36,957 nucleotides of DNA from an uncultured Pelagibacteraceae bacterium (lineage in GTDB: Bacteria; Pseudomonadota; Alphaproteobacteria; Pelagibacterales; Pelagibacteraceae), in the NCBI GenBank assembly GCA_902578325.1, contig CACHCM010000007.1, positions 1 through 36,957 of the forward strand, given 5' to 3'. Of this stretch, positions 1 to 19,736 are shown piece after piece (the first letter of the stretch is position 1; each line of letters starts with the position of its first letter). The position numbers and the translations under genes are program-made. Under the pieces are notes generated by a model. It made no database searches. It was not told the DNA's origin and was given only the letters and a program-made list of their open reading frames with translations.

Positions 1-555
1 TTATATCTTTTTTTGCATATATAGATCTACGGAAAGAATAAAGATTATTTTGTTTTTTTTCACTGTTTGTTAACTTTTTTTTCGTACCAAAATATGTCGA
101 AATTTTTTTTATTTTATCAAGAAAGATATTTACTGATTTTTTATCTAAAGAAATTTCATGATCTCTAAAAGTTTTTTTTTTGATATTATTAGAAAAATGT
201 TTTTCTATAATGTTTGCTCCAGACAAATATGAATATATTAATGTTTCATCACCTATAGTATGATCTGAATATCCAATTTCTAAATTAAATTTGTCTTTTA
301 AATGCTTTATTGTTCCTAAGTTGCTATCATTTGCAGGGGTTGGATAAGATGTATTGCAATGAAGAAGTGCAAGTCTCTTTTTTGTTATATAGGTTTTATC
401 TAATTTTTTTACAAAATCTACTGTCAGCTTTATGTCTTTTAAACTGCATAAACCTGTGGATACTATTAATGGTTTTTTTGTTTTAATTATTTTTTCAATA
501 ATTTGAAAATTATGCACATCTCCAGATCCAATTTTAAATATATCAATATACTTAT
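1..555 (-). pseudogene. neuB: NeuB-like N-acetylneuraminate/pseudaminate/legionaminate synthase, fragment (N-terminus missing at ~555; C-terminal SAF domain runs off the left edge)
   Basis: Hand translation of the minus strand: IDIFKIGSGDVHNFQIIEKIIKTKKPLIVSTGL...LLHCNTSYPTPANDSNLGTIKHLKDKFNLEIGYSDHTIGDETLIYSYLSGANIIEKHF...FRDHEISLD...FRRSIYAKKDI. KIxSGD, HCxxxYPTP, GYSDHT, IEKHF and RRSIxAxKDI are NeuB-family motifs. No open N-terminal continuation upstream of ~555. Not in the ORF list because it has no start. Confidence 0.85.
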
Positions 556-1861
556 TAAAGCAATTAAAAGTGTTTTTGATCAATCTTTTAAAGAATTAGA
601 ATTAATAGTAATTGACGATGGATCTTCTGATATTTCAGGTGAAATAATTAAAAAATATAAAAAAAGAAAAAATTTTAAAGTTATTTATAACAAAATTTCT
701 AAAGGTTTGATCAAGTCTTCAAATATTGCAATAAAAGCAGCAAGGGGAGAATATGTAATAAGGTTAGACGCTGATGATTATCTAGATCCAAATGCCTTGT
801 CAGTGCTTTATAATGCCATTAATAAAGATGAAAACATTGCGCTTGTTTATTCTGATTATTACTTAATTGATAGAAAGAACAATATTTTATCACTAGAAAA
901 ACAGCTATTGAGAGTGAATAAAAGTTTAAATCATTTACCAGTCCTTGCAGCCTGCTGTTTAATCAAAAAAAATGCATTATTTTCAGTTAACTTGTATGAT
1001 GAAAATTTTACTAGACAAGATGGGTATGATATTTGGTATAAATTATTGAATAACTTTCAATTTAAACATGTGTCTTTACCTCTGTTTTATTATAGAAGAC
1101 ACGAACAAAACTTAACATCAGATAAATCTAAACTATATAAAACAAGAACTAAAATATTAAATAAATTTTCAAATTTAAGAAAAATAAAAAATAAACTTAA
1201 AATAATCTGCGTAATTCCTGTAAGGGGTAAAAATATTGATTTAAACTGTACTTCACTAGACCTGTTTAATGGCAAACCATTAATATTCCATACAATTAAT
1301 GAAGCTATTAAAGTTAAAGAATTTAAAAAAATTATTGTAACTACACCAGATATTAATTTGATTAAAAAATTGAAAATAAAATATAAAAATAAAATTTTTA
1401 TTCAAAAGAGAAAAGAAATGTTGTCTTCAATAAATTTGGATTATAAACCTGCAGTAATTGAAGCTATAAATAAATTTGAGAAAGTAAATCCAGATTTAAT
1501 TGCAATATTAACTATAGAAAATCCATTGAGGAAGAAATATTATATAGAGCAAGCAATAAGTAATTTAATTGTTCATAAAAGTGATTTAGTAATTGGAACG
1601 GTTCCTGATTTTGAAAATAATTACTATAAGTATACCTCAAAAGGAATAAAACCTGTTACAAATCAAAAAAATAGAAAATTAAAACTTGAAAAAAATATAA
1701 TTCATAAAGATGTAGGAGCTTTTTCGATTATGAAATATTCTTCATATGTGAGTAACAGATTAAACAAAATTACTAATATCGTCATGAATACTGATGACTC
1801 ATTTATTATAAATAATAAGTCAGATCTTTCGGTTTTAAATAAGATCTCAAAAAAAAAATGA
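503..1861 (+). CDS. GT2-family glycosyltransferase fused to a CMP-sugar (NeuA-like) cytidylyltransferase domain; the annotated N-terminus lies in antisense neuB, so the native start is missing
   Basis: AIKSVFDQSFKELELIVIDDGS (GT2, minus the SVIIPTYN strand) and LDADDYLDP; C-terminal half IPVRG...LFNGKPLIFHTINEAIKVKEFKKIIVTTPD resembles cytidylyltransferases. Confidence 0.7.
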   Translation: MKIMHISRSNFKYINILIKAIKSVFDQSFKELELIVIDDGSSDISGEIIKKYKKRKNFKVIYNKISKGLIKSSNIAIKAARGEYVIRLDADDYLDPNALSVLYNAINKDENIALVYSDYYLIDRKNNILSLEKQLLRVNKSLNHLPVLAACCLIKKNALFSVNLYDENFTRQDGYDIWYKLLNNFQFKHVSLPLFYYRRHEQNLTSDKSKLYKTRTKILNKFSNLRKIKNKLKIICVIPVRGKNIDLNCTSLDLFNGKPLIFHTINEAIKVKEFKKIIVTTPDINLIKKLKIKYKNKIFIQKRKEMLSSINLDYKPAVIEAINKFEKVNPDLIAILTIENPLRKKYYIEQAISNLIVHKSDLVIGTVPDFENNYYKYTSKGIKPVTNQKNRKLKLEKNIIHKDVGAFSIMKYSSYVSNRLNKITNIVMNTDDSFIINNKSDLSVLNKISKKK

Positions 1862-2835
1862 GAATTTTAATTACAGGCTCTGCTGGATTTATAGGTTTTC
1901 ACTTGTCAGAGTTTTTGTTAAAAAAAGGACTTAAAGTTATTGGAATAGACACTTTAAATAATTATTATGACATAAGTTTTAAACTTAGAAGACTTAAAAT
2001 ATTAAAAAAGTATAAAAACTTTAAATTTAATAAACTAGATATTAGTAACAAAAAAAAAATTGATAATTTTTTCAATAAAAATAAAATTGATATAATTGTA
2101 AATTTAGCTGCATATGCAGGGGTTCAATATTCTCTTCAAAATCCTGATATATATTTTAAAACTAACGAGATTGGTTTTTATAACATTTTAGAAAATGCAA
2201 AAAGAAAAAATATAAAGAGAGTTTTATTTGCTTCTTCTTCTTCAGTTGCTGGTGATCTTAAAAAAAAGTTATTTTCTGAGTTGGATTTTACCGATTCTCC
2301 CATTTCACTTTACGGAGCTACAAAAAAAAATAATGAAATTCTAGCTCATTTTTATGCAATAAATTATAAAATTAAAATTATAGGCATACGTTTTTTCACT
2401 GTTTATGGTCCATTGGGCAGACCAGATTTATCGATATTTAAATTTGCAAATTCAATCCAAAAAGGAAGTCCAATCACAGTAAATAATTTTGGGAATCATT
2501 ACAGGGATTTTACTTTTGTAGATGATGCAATTAAATGTGTATTTAAGCTTTTGAAAATAAAACAATTTCATAAAATTGATAGAAAAAAAAACAAATATTT
2601 CCAAATTTTTAACCTTGGTGGAGGAAAAAAAATTAAGATAACAAAACTTATAAATATTTTAGAAAAGCTTTTAAATAAAAAAGCTAAAATAGTTTTAGGC
2701 CCTTTAAAAAAAGGTGATATTATATCATCTCAATCCGATATCAAAAAATTAAAAAGAAATATTAAATATTTCCCAAACACATCTTTTGAAAAAGGTTTAA
2801 AAAAATTTGTAAATTGGTTTGTAAATGATTTTTGA
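1858..2835 (+). CDS. NAD-dependent epimerase, UDP-glucuronate 4-epimerase-like SDR
   Basis: GSAGFIGFHL, IDTLNNYYD, NLAAYAGVQYSLQNP, YGATKK (YxxxK), RFFTVYGPLGRPD. Confidence 0.85.
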   Translation: MRILITGSAGFIGFHLSEFLLKKGLKVIGIDTLNNYYDISFKLRRLKILKKYKNFKFNKLDISNKKKIDNFFNKNKIDIIVNLAAYAGVQYSLQNPDIYFKTNEIGFYNILENAKRKNIKRVLFASSSSVAGDLKKKLFSELDFTDSPISLYGATKKNNEILAHFYAINYKIKIIGIRFFTVYGPLGRPDLSIFKFANSIQKGSPITVNNFGNHYRDFTFVDDAIKCVFKLLKIKQFHKIDRKKNKYFQIFNLGGGKKIKITKLINILEKLLNKKAKIVLGPLKKGDIISSQSDIKKLKRNIKYFPNTSFEKGLKKFVNWFVNDF

Positions 2836-2837
2836 AA

Positions 2838-4196
2838 TTAATTAGAAAGTTTTATCAACTTATTTTTTTCTAACAACTTGGCAATTGTAAATACTTTTTT
2901 GGATTTACTTTTAATTATATTTGCAATACTCGATATAGTATTGCCATCACCATAATAAAGTAAGTTAAACATTATAAATTCATCATTTGTTAAGAAATTT
3001 TTAGAAACATTTCTGTATAAATTTCTTTTTGATAAAAAAGGTTCGCATTTTGTTTGGCTAAATACCTTTATTCTATTATATTTTGAATTAATTAATTTTG
3101 TAATTTTTAATTTATTATCTACTTTTTTTTTTAAAAATTTATTTTTTTCATAGTTAATTAAATTTATTATTTTAATCAAAAAGTTAAAAGACTCTGTTAG
3201 CAATTTCGGATTTGTTATTTGTAAGTTATCCATGGAATTATGATATTCTTTATAATTTCCAAATTTTGTTCTTGTTAAAGTTACTACAGGCAAATTAACT
3301 CCAGGAAAATTATATTGTCTTTCATCTGAGCCACATTTTTGAAATTTGTAAACTTTAATTTTTTTTTTGGTTTTTAAAATTTTTTTTGCAATATTATCCG
3401 AATAGCTATTTGCATATTTTGATGAAATCATTGAAAAATTTCCCTTGTCACCAAAGCAGGTTATGTGGAATCCAGCTCTGAAATTTTTTTTCAGAGTTTT
3501 TAAGTTTTTATTTATGTAAGTAATTGCTCCAATAGTTTCAGGAAGAAATAAAATTCTTAAAGTAAAAAAATTATTTAAATTAGAAAAATATTTTGCCAAA
3601 TATGCTAAAATTACAGGTGCGCACAATTCATTATTAACCAGTGATGGATGGCAAATGTTTGTACTAAGAATTATTTCTTTTTTAGATTTACCTTTAATTA
3701 AAATTTCACCTATAGATAGGCTTCCTTTTTTATTAAAGGATGAGTCAATATAAACCTTGTAGGATTTAAATTTATCAAGCTTTATTCTATCATTATGATT
3801 TAAGCAAAAACCCCATCTTTTTTTATAATATGAAGTTATATAGGGAATAGATTTAGGTTTACTTTTTATTGAATAAAGATGTTCATTTAATTCCTTAAAA
3901 CTAATTTCTTTATTTATTGGTTCTGAATATGAAACTAAGTGTAGATTATTTTTTTTAAAATCAACTATTTTTTCTCCATCACATTTAATAAAAGCATCTT
4001 TGACATTCCATTCTGGAGGTATTGTCCAGTCAAATACTTTTTTGCCCGACTTGAACTCTAATATTTTCATTTTTCCAGATATCTTACCTAAAATTTTGAG
4101 AGACGCTCTATTTCCATTGCCTGTTAAGCTCCTATTTATTGGAAAAAGTTTCTTGATTGATTTATAGATTTTCTCACCTACATTGAGATTGTTCAT
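2838..4196 (-). CDS. DUF4910/DUF2172 aminopeptidase-like (M28 fold) protein of polysaccharide loci
   Basis: LFPINRSLTGNGNR, WTIPPEWNV, STNICHPSLVNNELCAP, KCGSDERQYNFPGVNLPV, EYHNSMDNL. Confidence 0.8.
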   Translation of the reverse strand: MNNLNVGEKIYKSIKKLFPINRSLTGNGNRASLKILGKISGKMKILEFKSGKKVFDWTIPPEWNVKDAFIKCDGEKIVDFKKNNLHLVSYSEPINKEISFKELNEHLYSIKSKPKSIPYITSYYKKRWGFCLNHNDRIKLDKFKSYKVYIDSSFNKKGSLSIGEILIKGKSKKEIILSTNICHPSLVNNELCAPVILAYLAKYFSNLNNFFTLRILFLPETIGAITYINKNLKTLKKNFRAGFHITCFGDKGNFSMISSKYANSYSDNIAKKILKTKKKIKVYKFQKCGSDERQYNFPGVNLPVVTLTRTKFGNYKEYHNSMDNLQITNPKLLTESFNFLIKIINLINYEKNKFLKKKVDNKLKITKLINSKYNRIKVFSQTKCEPFLSKRNLYRNVSKNFLTNDEFIMFNLLYYGDGNTISSIANIIKSKSKKVFTIAKLLEKNKLIKLSN

Positions 4197-4326
4197 AATA
4201 TTTTTTTATTTTATCTATTCAAACAGTTTAATTTTAAAATTTAATCGATAAACTTATTTATTATTTAAGTTTTTGATATTACAATTATTTCTATATATAT
4301 AGAAATTTCAATAAATTACTAATTTA

Positions 4327-10548: not shown

Positions 10549-11572
10549 GAGTAGTTATAATACCTGAATGAGAATAGTTAAAATTTAACATTTTAAATTT
10601 TTTATTATTATTTTTAATAAATTTTTTTTTATTTAATGGATTTTTAAATGTACATAAAACAAATCCTCCACCCCCTGCACCTAAAATTTTTCCAGAAATC
10701 ATTCCATTTTTTTTTAAAAAATCAAAAATATTTTCAATATGATTATTACTAATTTTTTTTGATAAACTTTTTTTTAAGTTCCAGCTTTCATTCATTAAAT
10801 CGTTATAATAATCAATAATGTCAGATGATTTATCGTTTAATTTTTTGAAAAAATCTTCCTCCAGTTGCAAAATTCTCTTTGTATAATTAAATATATCTTT
10901 CTTTTTGTAATTATTTTTTTGTTCTTTTAAAATATTTTGAGCTTTTCTGTTTTTGTTTGTAAAAATTAAAATTGAATTATTTGAAAGATTTTTTAAAAAT
11001 TTTAATTGAAATTTTTGATTTAGCTTTTTAACAGATATTTTTGAATTATCATAGAAGGTATATTCATTAAAGCCACCACAAGCTGCAGAATATTGATCTT
11101 GGAATCCTGCTTCGGATTTTGTTAAACTCATCTCAATTTTTGATGCATCTTGAGCTAATTGAAGATTATTTTTTCTTTTATTTCGCATTAATATATTTAG
11201 AATTTTGCATACACTTACTTGAAACGCTCCTGAAGAACCCATTCCAGTTCCAGCAGGAATGTCTGATATAGTTGCTATATATAGAGGTTCATTGTACTTA
11301 TAGTATTTTATAGAATTACGAATAATATTATTTTTAATTTTATCAATTTTATTAACGTTTTCTGTTTGGTGATAATTAAATCTGTATTTTTTATTAAAGA
11401 TTTCTGATTGAATTTTTGCAAAAGTATAAATGTATTTATCAATACTAAAATTTAAGACTTTGCCATAACCATTTTTATTTATAAAATATGGTAAATCAGT
11501 ACCTCCTCCAAAAATACTAATCCTTAAAGGTGTTATGGTTGTTATTATTTTATTTTTTGAAAAATTAAACAT
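10541..11572 (-). CDS. hddA: GHMP kinase, D-glycero-D-manno-heptose 7-phosphate kinase-like (HddA)
   Basis: TTITPLRISIFGGGTDLPYFI, IPAGTGMGSSGAFQVSVCKIL, QDQYSAACGGFNEY, GKILGAGGGGFVLC. Confidence 0.85.
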   Translation of the reverse strand: MFNFSKNKIITTITPLRISIFGGGTDLPYFINKNGYGKVLNFSIDKYIYTFAKIQSEIFNKKYRFNYHQTENVNKIDKIKNNIIRNSIKYYKYNEPLYIATISDIPAGTGMGSSGAFQVSVCKILNILMRNKRKNNLQLAQDASKIEMSLTKSEAGFQDQYSAACGGFNEYTFYDNSKISVKKLNQKFQLKFLKNLSNNSILIFTNKNRKAQNILKEQKNNYKKKDIFNYTKRILQLEEDFFKKLNDKSSDIIDYYNDLMNESWNLKKSLSKKISNNHIENIFDFLKKNGMISGKILGAGGGGFVLCTFKNPLNKKKFIKNNNKKFKMLNFNYSHSGIITTHD

Positions 11573-11608
11573 CTTTTAACAATTATAACTAATATTTTAA
11601 AATCATTA

Positions 11609-12694
11609 ATGTATAGTTCACCAGGCATGTATTTAAAAGTAATATCTTTGAAAAGAGCAAAATATAGAAAAATTACTCTTTCGCCCTTTTTAGAAATGAA
11701 TAATGATTTATATATTTTTGATGATTATATTTTTTCACTAATAAAATGTGTATTTTTCTGTTTATTCAATAAAAAAAAAAATATAGAAATTATTTTTTGT
11801 GATGGCAATGTAGAGACCTTGAATTTTAAAATAATCAATTTTTTTTTTAGAAATATTAAAAAATCTATTTTATGGTTCAACTCTTTAAATGAAATAAATA
11901 ATAGTAAACTTATTGATTTTGATCATTATAATTTTTTTCCAGAGCAAAGAAAATTTTTAAATAAAAGTTCGAAGTCTATTTTACCTTTTCCAAAAAAAAT
12001 TAGATTATCTAATACTAATAAAGATATTTTTATTTCTTATATTTCGGAAGTAAGCATAGAGATTAGTGATCCATCTTATAGTCTCATAAATTCATATAAC
12101 AGCAGTATAATAAATAAAATTGATAACTTTGTTTATAAAATTTTGAAAGAAAATAATTTTGATATAATTTCTAAATTTGAATTTTGTTATGATTTTACTT
12201 CTGAATTATTTAATAATCTTTCACATTATGAAAAAATAAATATAAATAATGAAATTTATAGGCTCATTAAAAATAGATTACGTTATAATTGTGTAAAAAG
12301 TTTAAATAAACATTTAAAACAAGATTTTTGCCTTATAGGAAAAAGTTGGAAAAAATTAGGATTTGAAACATTAAGAAATAATTACGATTATTTTGATAAT
12401 AGAAACAAATATTCAAGTTCAATATTCTCCCTAGATTGTGGCTCAACCAGTGGTGAATATCCAATTTATTTAAGAACATATGAGATAGTTCTAAATTCGA
12501 GTTGTTTATTTCAAACCATGACGTCTATGTCATCACAATTATTTGGAGATCTTACTAAAGAGGTTTGCTTTAATAATTTAGAAGATATGATGAAAAAGAT
12601 TGAAACTCTAAGAAAGTTAGAAACAAATGATGTCGAAAATCTTAAAAATAAAATATTTAATCAAATTAAAAAAAATAATCTTCAGTCTTTGTAG
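11609..12694 (+). CDS. Hypothetical protein, possible glycosyltransferase (GT1/CgeB-like C-terminus)
   Basis: 361 aa; FSLDCGSTSGEYPIYLRTYEIVLNSSCLFQ weakly resembles the sPRtfEilasG motif. Confidence 0.4.
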   Translation: MYSSPGMYLKVISLKRAKYRKITLSPFLEMNNDLYIFDDYIFSLIKCVFFCLFNKKKNIEIIFCDGNVETLNFKIINFFFRNIKKSILWFNSLNEINNSKLIDFDHYNFFPEQRKFLNKSSKSILPFPKKIRLSNTNKDIFISYISEVSIEISDPSYSLINSYNSSIINKIDNFVYKILKENNFDIISKFEFCYDFTSELFNNLSHYEKININNEIYRLIKNRLRYNCVKSLNKHLKQDFCLIGKSWKKLGFETLRNNYDYFDNRNKYSSSIFSLDCGSTSGEYPIYLRTYEIVLNSSCLFQTMTSMSSQLFGDLTKEVCFNNLEDMMKKIETLRKLETNDVENLKNKIFNQIKKNNLQSL

Positions 12695-12697
12695 TAT

Positions 12698-13588
12698 ATG
12701 CAAAAAATTTTATTAACAGGTGGCACAGGTTTTATAGGAAATAATGTTCTTAAATTACTAAAATTAAATCCAGATTATAAAATATTGTCTCTTTCCAGAA
12801 CAAAACAATATAACAGTAAAGAATTAAAATGGATAAGAGGAGATTTTGGGAGTTTAAATAAAAAAACTATGAAATTAATTTTAGATTTTAAACCTTCAAT
12901 ATTAATTCATTTAGGTTGGCAAGACATTCCAAATTTTAGTAAAAAAGTTTGTACAGATAATTTAAACAAATCAAAAAAATTTTTAAATGATATGGTAAAA
13001 ATACAAAGTATAGAAAAAATAATAATTTCTGGTTCTTGTTTTGAGTATTTACGTAAATCAGGAGAAGTTAAAGAAAAAGCTGAACTGGATAGAAAAAATT
13101 TTTTCCCAAATTCTAAAATAAAACTTGAAGAATTCACAAGAAAAATTTGTTTAAGTTATGATAAGACTTTTTATTGGCTTAGATTTTTTTATGTTTATGG
13201 TCCAAATCAAAGATCAGGATCACTAATACCTTATATTGCCAAAAGTATCATCAATAATTCTGAATTAATTTTAAACAATCCAAAGATGACACTTGATTTT
13301 ATAAATGTTATTGATGTTTCTAAAATAATAAAATTATTTATAAAAAAAAAAATACCCTCAGGTGTCTATAATGTTGGATCTGGAAAAAAAACTTCAGTAG
13401 TTGAAATTTATAATTATTTGTTCTTTAAAATTTTAAAGAAAAAACAAAATAAGTATAAAATAGATAAAAATAATTTTTTTATTTCAAATAATAAAAAATT
13501 AACAAAAAATATTGGTAAATTTAAATTTACTCCAATAAAAAATGGTTTAACAAATTATTTATTATGGTACAGGAATATTAAAAAATAA
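12698..13588 (+). CDS. NAD-dependent epimerase/dehydratase (SDR)
   Basis: ILLTGGTGFIGNNVLKLL, LIHLGWQD, IISGSCFEY, RFFYVYGPNQRSGSLIPY. Confidence 0.8.
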   Translation: MQKILLTGGTGFIGNNVLKLLKLNPDYKILSLSRTKQYNSKELKWIRGDFGSLNKKTMKLILDFKPSILIHLGWQDIPNFSKKVCTDNLNKSKKFLNDMVKIQSIEKIIISGSCFEYLRKSGEVKEKAELDRKNFFPNSKIKLEEFTRKICLSYDKTFYWLRFFYVYGPNQRSGSLIPYIAKSIINNSELILNNPKMTLDFINVIDVSKIIKLFIKKKIPSGVYNVGSGKKTSVVEIYNYLFFKILKKKQNKYKIDKNNFFISNNKKLTKNIGKFKFTPIKNGLTNYLLWYRNIKK

Positions 13589-17867: not shown

Positions 17868-19736
17868 TTAATAGTTAATTCCAAATTTAAAAATTCTGCC
17901 CTCATGATTATACCCGTGGGGTCTTTGATATGACTCATTTAAAGCATTAGTAATTTTAATAAAAAAATCACCGTTATTCAATTTTTTTGAAATTTTAAGG
18001 TCTACTAAGTCGGTACTATCCATTTCGATAGTACTGAAATTTGAGGAGTGAGTATCAAAATGTTTTCCATAATGATTATATTTTAAATTTAAATTCAAAT
18101 TACCGAAAAAATTACTATTAATTATTTTTGAAAAGTTTATGCCATAATTTTTTTCTGGTCTTCTTAATTGGTCAGCACCATTCTCTTTTTCTGATGATAA
18201 AAATGATGAGAAAAAATTTATATTAGAATTTTTAAATTTTAAATTTACCTGATTACTAAAACCTGATTGATTTAAATCTATATTATCACTGTCATTTTGA
18301 TATTTATTATTTAAATATTCGATATTATTTTGTATGTTTGCTCTAAAAGCTCTAAGAGATAAATTTAAATTTTCGTTAAATGATATTTTCGAATAAATTT
18401 CATAAGTATTACTTTTTTCAGGATTTAAATCTTTATTACCGGAATAACCAAAGTTATCTGTTCCAAACATTTCGTAAAGAGTGGGATTTCTTAAACCATT
18501 CATATAGGAAAACCCTAAATTAAATTTATTAAATTTTTGTTCTAAATTTACTTTATATGTATTATTTCTTTTTGTTTGTTTATGAACATCACTTCTTCCA
18601 AATAATGAAATATTTGAATTTTCAAAGATATTCCAACCTAAATTACCGTGTATAGCTAAATTATCTGAATGACCTTTTGTTGATGCTGTATATGATCCTC
18701 TGTTGTTAAAATACCCCCAATCGTACTTATATTCTGAGCCTAATCCATAAGATAATTTGCTATTAATTATTTTCGATAAATCATATTTAAAACCAAAAAC
18801 TTCACTTTTATATGTATCTATGGTTCCTAATTCGTCATATTCTCTATCGTAAATATTGTAATAAAATTTATAGTTATTTTTTTTAGTCTCAGTTAAATTC
18901 TCTAAACCAAATTGTATAGACCCCATCTTATTATCACCCTCATAACCAATTTGATTTGAATTACTATTGTCGTATTCCGCTTTTGTTTGTCTTATATATG
19001 TTGTTTTATATATTCTTAAATTTTCATTTAAAAATTTTTCATAGTTTATATTTGTAGAATAATTCTCAAGAGCATCTTTTTCATCTTTTGAATTTCCTCT
19101 AGCACTTACAGTTGAATTTTTTACACTGCCTACTTTAATATTCAGTGAAGATTCATCGTAAACATAGGTTTTGTTTCCAGATAATTCATAATTTGCACTG
19201 TTATCAGTTGTTACAAAAAAAGTATCTTTATAATCACCTGTTAAGATAATATTCACCGCTCCTCCGATTGCATTAGTTCCAAAATGAGTAGCGCTAGAAC
19301 CAGGATAAATTTCAATTTGTTGAACTGTTTGAATAAAATCAACTCCAAAATCATGTAATCCTTGAGTAGTAGATTGGTCATTAATTGGTATCCCATTTAT
19401 CATTACCAAGGTATGATTTGATCCAGTTCCTCTCATAAACATAGAGGCTTGTTGACCTTTTGGTCCAGATTGAGTGATGTTAATATCGGGCACAGATTCT
19501 AAGACGTCAATTAAATCTACTGCACCACTTTCTTCGATTTGTTTTTTTGTAATTATAGTTTTGTTAATTCCAGACTTTGAAAAGTTTGATGAATTTGGAG
19601 TTAAACTAATAACTTCTATACATGGAATTTTATTTTTGTTATCCCATCTACATGTGTAATTAGAATTTTTATCTGCAGCAAATACTAGATTTGAAAATAT
19701 TAAATTAAAAAGTATATATACAATTAGCCTCGGCAT
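17868..19736 (-). CDS. btuB: TonB-dependent outer-membrane receptor, vitamin B12 (BtuB)-like
   Basis: Signal peptide; plug motifs IDVLESVPDINITQSG, MFMRGTGSNHTLVMINGIPIND, VQQIEIYPGSSATHFGTNAIGGAVNIIL; barrel ending in aromatic Y; cobalamin riboswitch upstream. Confidence 0.88.
   Translation of the reverse strand: MPRLIVYILFNLIFSNLVFAADKNSNYTCRWDNKNKIPCIEVISLTPNSSNFSKSGINKTIITKKQIEESGAVDLIDVLESVPDINITQSGPKGQQASMFMRGTGSNHTLVMINGIPINDQSTTQGLHDFGVDFIQTVQQIEIYPGSSATHFGTNAIGGAVNIILTGDYKDTFFVTTDNSANYELSGNKTYVYDESSLNIKVGSVKNSTVSARGNSKDEKDALENYSTNINYEKFLNENLRIYKTTYIRQTKAEYDNSNSNQIGYEGDNKMGSIQFGLENLTETKKNNYKFYYNIYDREYDELGTIDTYKSEVFGFKYDLSKIINSKLSYGLGSEYKYDWGYFNNRGSYTASTKGHSDNLAIHGNLGWNIFENSNISLFGRSDVHKQTKRNNTYKVNLEQKFNKFNLGFSYMNGLRNPTLYEMFGTDNFGYSGNKDLNPEKSNTYEIYSKISFNENLNLSLRAFRANIQNNIEYLNNKYQNDSDNIDLNQSGFSNQVNLKFKNSNINFFSSFLSSEKENGADQLRRPEKNYGINFSKIINSNFFGNLNLNLKYNHYGKHFDTHSSNFSTIEMDSTDLVDLKISKKLNNGDFFIKITNALNESYQRPHGYNHEGRIFKFGINY

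Follow-up and report, generated by a model that had tools for sequence, protein, structure and literature searches.

Does the head-to-head arrangement of two genes at one end of a Pelagibacteraceae contig record an inversion that destroyed both of them in the cell, or was it created while the DNA was amplified and assembled? The question is raised by contig C7, analysed here over its complete length of 36,957 nucleotides (the window), where a neuB gene and a GT2 glycosyltransferase gene both lack their 5′ part and are broken at a single point, 0.56 kb from the contig end. The preliminary description had reported a head-to-head junction truncating both genes, and Pfam profiles together with nucleotide homology on both strands confirmed it. 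Whether an inversion had really taken place, or whether the join was an inverted chimera of the type known from multiple displacement amplification (MDA), it had left open. Our analysis supports this either/or reading, and the artefact branch is to be preferred, given the position at a contig end, a second fold-back in contig C26 of the same assembly and the geometry of the join. We estimate at about 85% the probability that the C7 junction is an amplification/assembly chimera, namely an inverted fold-back from phi29 single-cell amplification.

The minus-strand open reading frame at 583-2 matches the Pfam NeuB profile (E 6.5e-44) at positions 90-241 of 241, so that roughly the first third of the protein is absent, as had been claimed from the translation. 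Nucleotide and amino acid homology to two loci of a relative described below (L126 and L063) assigns to positions 2-559 of the minus strand a fragment of a sialic/pseudaminic/legionaminic-type synthase gene, from about codon 112 onwards, and thereby refines the end of homology to position 559. The fragment is cut on its 5′ side by the junction, with a loss of about 111 codons, and on its 3′ side by the contig end. It shares 71% amino acid and 81% nucleotide identity with the N-terminal half of neuB in L126, up to window position 559. Its C-terminal part is 59% identical at the amino acid level to the NeuB C-terminus encoded by L063, and other full-length matches do not exceed 43%.

On the plus strand, the open reading frame at 503-1861 contains a Glycos_transf_2 domain (Pfam, 11-165) followed by a weak cytidylyltransferase domain. 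DNA homology to the GT2-cytidylyltransferase gene of L063 begins at window position 557, which corresponds to 69 bases past the ATG of that gene (about codon 23). The genuine part of the gene therefore spans positions 557-1861 (+), without its first 23 codons or so, and is 73% identical in amino acids to the L063 frame at 267-1640. The late start of both the profile match (at 11) and the L063 homology agrees with the earlier remark that the first strand of the GT2 fold is missing. The 5′ extension at 503-556 (+), which provides the apparent starts TTG 503 and ATG 512, is spurious; these starts had been placed inside antisense neuB, correctly so, as neuB homology to L126 runs to position 559. 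Downstream, a gene for an NAD-dependent sugar epimerase/dehydratase (1858-2835, +; Pfam Epimerase; 74% amino acid identity to L063 1637-2599) and one for a DUF4910/DUF2172/HTH_47 protein (2838-4196, −; Pfam; 70% identity to L063 2635-3984) are both intact and collinear with the relative.

Fusions of a GT2 domain with a PseF/NeuA-like cytidylyltransferase domain occur in the window (557-1861) and in L049-L056, L062 and L063, often beside neuB. Among 300 genomes of the same genus, 16 gave matches to the GT2-cytidylyltransferase (E ≤ 1e-20), some of them to the GT2 part only. The nucleotide-binding motif IPARGxSKRxxxKN is kept in L056 and replaced in most fusion members, for example by IPVRGKNIDLNCTSL in the window; because of this replacement, the second domain may lack CMP-sugar synthetase activity.

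The transition between the two genes can be placed at positions 554-562, by nucleotide homology (GT2 from 557, neuB to 559) and codon-level comparison. The junction announced in the preliminary description is thus present, at a narrower place than the 500-575 interval over which it had been spread. The AAA at positions 557-559 fits both neuB and GT2, giving three common bases as read against the genes of relatives rather than against the parental sequence of the same cell. The partly self-complementary AT-rich stretch mentioned at the breakpoint also exists, as a pair of 20-nt arms; these arms are only 70% complementary and represent one of 34 inverted pairs in 301 AT-rich bases. They are no evidence for anything. 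A search for repeats at the junction that could drive a switch returned AT-rich chance pairs only, and nothing indicated a phase-variable switch.

The native order of these genes can be read from AG-457-O03 (G357), a single-cell genome that was the closest named relative found in a scan of GTDB genomes. L063, a 100% match to this genome, comes from the end of its contig C26, and L126 from the end of its contig C7, in its own numbering. L063 and window positions 557-4205 share 75% nucleotide identity and the order of their GT2-cytidylyltransferase, epimerase and DUF4910 genes. Directly upstream of the GT2-cytidylyltransferase gene, on the same strand and with a 4-bp overlap, L063 carries the last 89 codons of neuB, whereas L126 carries the N-terminal 186 codons of the same neuB type. 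The gap between the two halves (67 codons, 201 bp) matches what would be lost where two contigs abut and each end is shortened by 100 bp, as in the SCGC pipeline (PMC5519541), and we strongly infer that both halves belong to one gene. In SCGC assemblies generally, ends trimmed in this way would lend themselves to systematic pairing.

Judged from these sequences, the native order is neuB, GT2-cytidylyltransferase and epimerase on one strand, with both genes unbroken at the junction point in AG-457-O03. The relative thus resembles the window in its orthologous genes and their order downstream of the junction, and differs from it in that neuB and the GT2-cytidylyltransferase gene are co-stranded, neuB being split elsewhere by the contig gap. 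Since this order is collinear, a local inverted join must have occurred in C7. In less closely related genomes that have the two genes close together, these lie on the same strand (L048, L049, L050, L051, L052, L053, L056 and L057), or neuB is convergent on the GT2-cytidylyltransferase gene (L062). None of the relatives compared has the head-to-head arrangement, and the C7 join was not found in the 100-400 same-genus genomes searched. The comparison proposed earlier, for a close homologue with an equally short NeuB and a conserved junction, was run and yielded none. It is hardly conceivable, therefore, that C7 carries a natural, functional pair of short NeuB and GT2 genes transcribed divergently from a common start region: open frames do enter the junction from both sides, but such a pair is present in no relative compared, and it would consist of a NeuB without the first third of the catalytic domain profile and a GT2 without its first strand.

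A genuine inversion in place is a more serious alternative, although an unlikely one. In the lineage of this cell, a segment of about 0.76 kb, from about codon 112 of neuB to about codon 23 of the GT2 gene, would have been turned around, breaking both genes, and its right border would give exactly the junction of C7. Surface-polysaccharide gene sets vary among relatives, and the orientation of neuB is not fixed, as its convergent position in L062 illustrates. Against this, the reciprocal border, in which neuB codons 1-111 should lie beside the antisense GT2 5′ part, is absent from the assembly (72% complete), no stand-out repeats able to drive a switch were found, and neither the neuB nor the GT2-cytidylyltransferase frame otherwise contains stops, both being well conserved in the manner of genes still in use. 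That no relative compared shows the head-to-head order also speaks against an inversion, although such a relative is not strictly required if the event was recent in one cell line. Somewhat less probable still is a small true inversion that acts as an off switch, or as a reversible one, for a nonulosonic-acid gene pair of a streamlined SAR11 cell; if true, it might, for example, alter the surface sugar under phage pressure. The chimera and a true inversion differ only from about 0.2 kb beyond the contig end.

The properties of the assembly point to the chimera. It comprises 962,632 bases in 57 contigs, of which 6.6% lies as near to a contig end as the C7 junction. The smallest contig measures 2,018 bp, which fits the SCGC pipeline, where 100 bp are trimmed from contig ends and a 2,000-bp cut-off is applied (PMC5519541). 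From this published cut-off, the smallest contig and the named relatives, which are single-cell genomes with SCGC-style names, the assembly appears to derive from an amplified single-cell genome. The missing 5′ part of neuB was sought with the NeuB profile and with the N-terminal halves from two relatives, and nothing beyond the known fragment was present in the assembly; the same kind of query recovered the neuB 5′ part in five relatives. Absence from an assembly that is 72% complete nevertheless proves little. The left neighbour of neuB could not be placed either: for the adjoining gene of AG-457-O03, whose product resembles a sugar-nucleotide dehydrogenase, this assembly contains no more than a 34% paralogue.

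The geometry of the join corresponds to that of known phi29 products. In the MDA of an E. coli cell, 475 chimeras were described, 85% of them inverted joins, mostly between segments less than 10 kb apart, and most chimeras had 2-21 nt of complementary bases at the join; the inverted join of nearby segments with a short common sequence is the dominant phi29 chimera type (Lasken and Stockwell 2007, PMC1855051). In C7, the two segments have opposite orientations relative to the native order in L063 and L126. If gene lengths are as in AG-457-O03, a distance of about 756 nt (0.76 kb), well within 10 kb, separates the joined points on the native template; it is the sum of the 558 nt of neuB present in the window and 198 nt of L063 (138 to 336). 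An inverted join over less than 10 kb and the loss of the intervening stretch are shared with the published chimeras, and so, probably, is a short common sequence, with the difference that the C7 join is known from an assembled contig only and that only about three common bases can be deduced.

A mechanism can be proposed whose steps of strand displacement and re-annealing are derived from the junction geometry and the published model. Synthesis would proceed through the GT2 gene in the direction of its 5′ end until the nascent strand detaches at about codon 23. Pairing of a few bases (AAA/TTT) would then let the free 3′ end of this strand prime on a displaced complementary strand, at about neuB codon 112 and some 0.76 kb distant, from where it would be extended in the opposite direction. 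The assembled contig would cover 0.56 kb of the flipped neuB. A fold-back should re-enter GT2 about 0.2 kb past the contig end, a distance that shrinks to about 0.1 kb if the end was trimmed by 100 bp. No inverted duplication of a complete fold-back was detected within the window, which ends short of the expected fold-back point.

The misorientation of the neuB edge at a short repeat, through a de Bruijn-graph or scaffolding error and with no amplification chimera, is a very improbable source of the junction. Its position near a contig end and the composition of the genome (24% GC, AT-rich with many short repeats) would suit such an error, but the common sequence of about 3 bases is too short for a k-mer overlap, and the two places are not connected by any repeat of more than a few bases, which makes a pure assembler error unlikely.

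A second fold-back is carried by contig C26 of the same assembly (L046; 12,998 bp). This contig displays a perfect terminal inverted duplication of 1,484 bp (positions 1-1484 and 11515-12998) that stops abruptly. At the break, a membrane-protein gene is interrupted in its second copy at about codon 240. The gene to which it is joined, likewise one for a membrane protein, retains about 395 codons, compared with open frames of about 540-600 amino acids in relatives, so that it lacks its N-terminal part. We regard C26 as an almost certain fold-back chimera, one in which both arms were assembled. It resembles the C7 junction in that an inverted join near a contig end cuts two genes in a polysaccharide gene region; it differs in that both identical 1,484-bp arms were assembled, whereas C7 stops before the second copy. 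It was the only fold-back found in a screen of 41 contigs (333 kb) that took in C18-C57 and the window. One other fold-back in 333 kb indicates that chimeras are rare in this assembly, which counts against a chimera in C7. The chimera is nevertheless favoured by the contig-end position, the C26 fold-back, the SCGC-type statistics, the absence of the neuB 5′ part and the MDA-like geometry taken together.

Two further genes of the window lie among glycan genes. An Antibiotic_NAT family protein (Pfam PF02522; 6231-6992, +) is encoded inside the glycan gene region, and its gene context makes a sugar N-acetyltransferase probable, rather than a resistance determinant. A TonB-dependent receptor with Plug and beta-barrel domains (17868-19736, −) is encoded in a sugar-nucleotide/glycan region of this streamlined SAR11-type genome.

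For single-cell assemblies a cheap check is available: genes broken in head-to-head orientation at up to about 1 kb from a contig end should be trimmed, as should terminal inverted duplications like that of C26. We see no good evidence that this organism has lost a gene, and neither gene should be called a pseudogene; neuB and the GT2 gene are probably both intact in the cell. An automatic annotation would list neuB as truncated and give the GT2 gene a wrong start, and such entries could be misread as pseudogenes or as a rearranged SAR11 surface locus.
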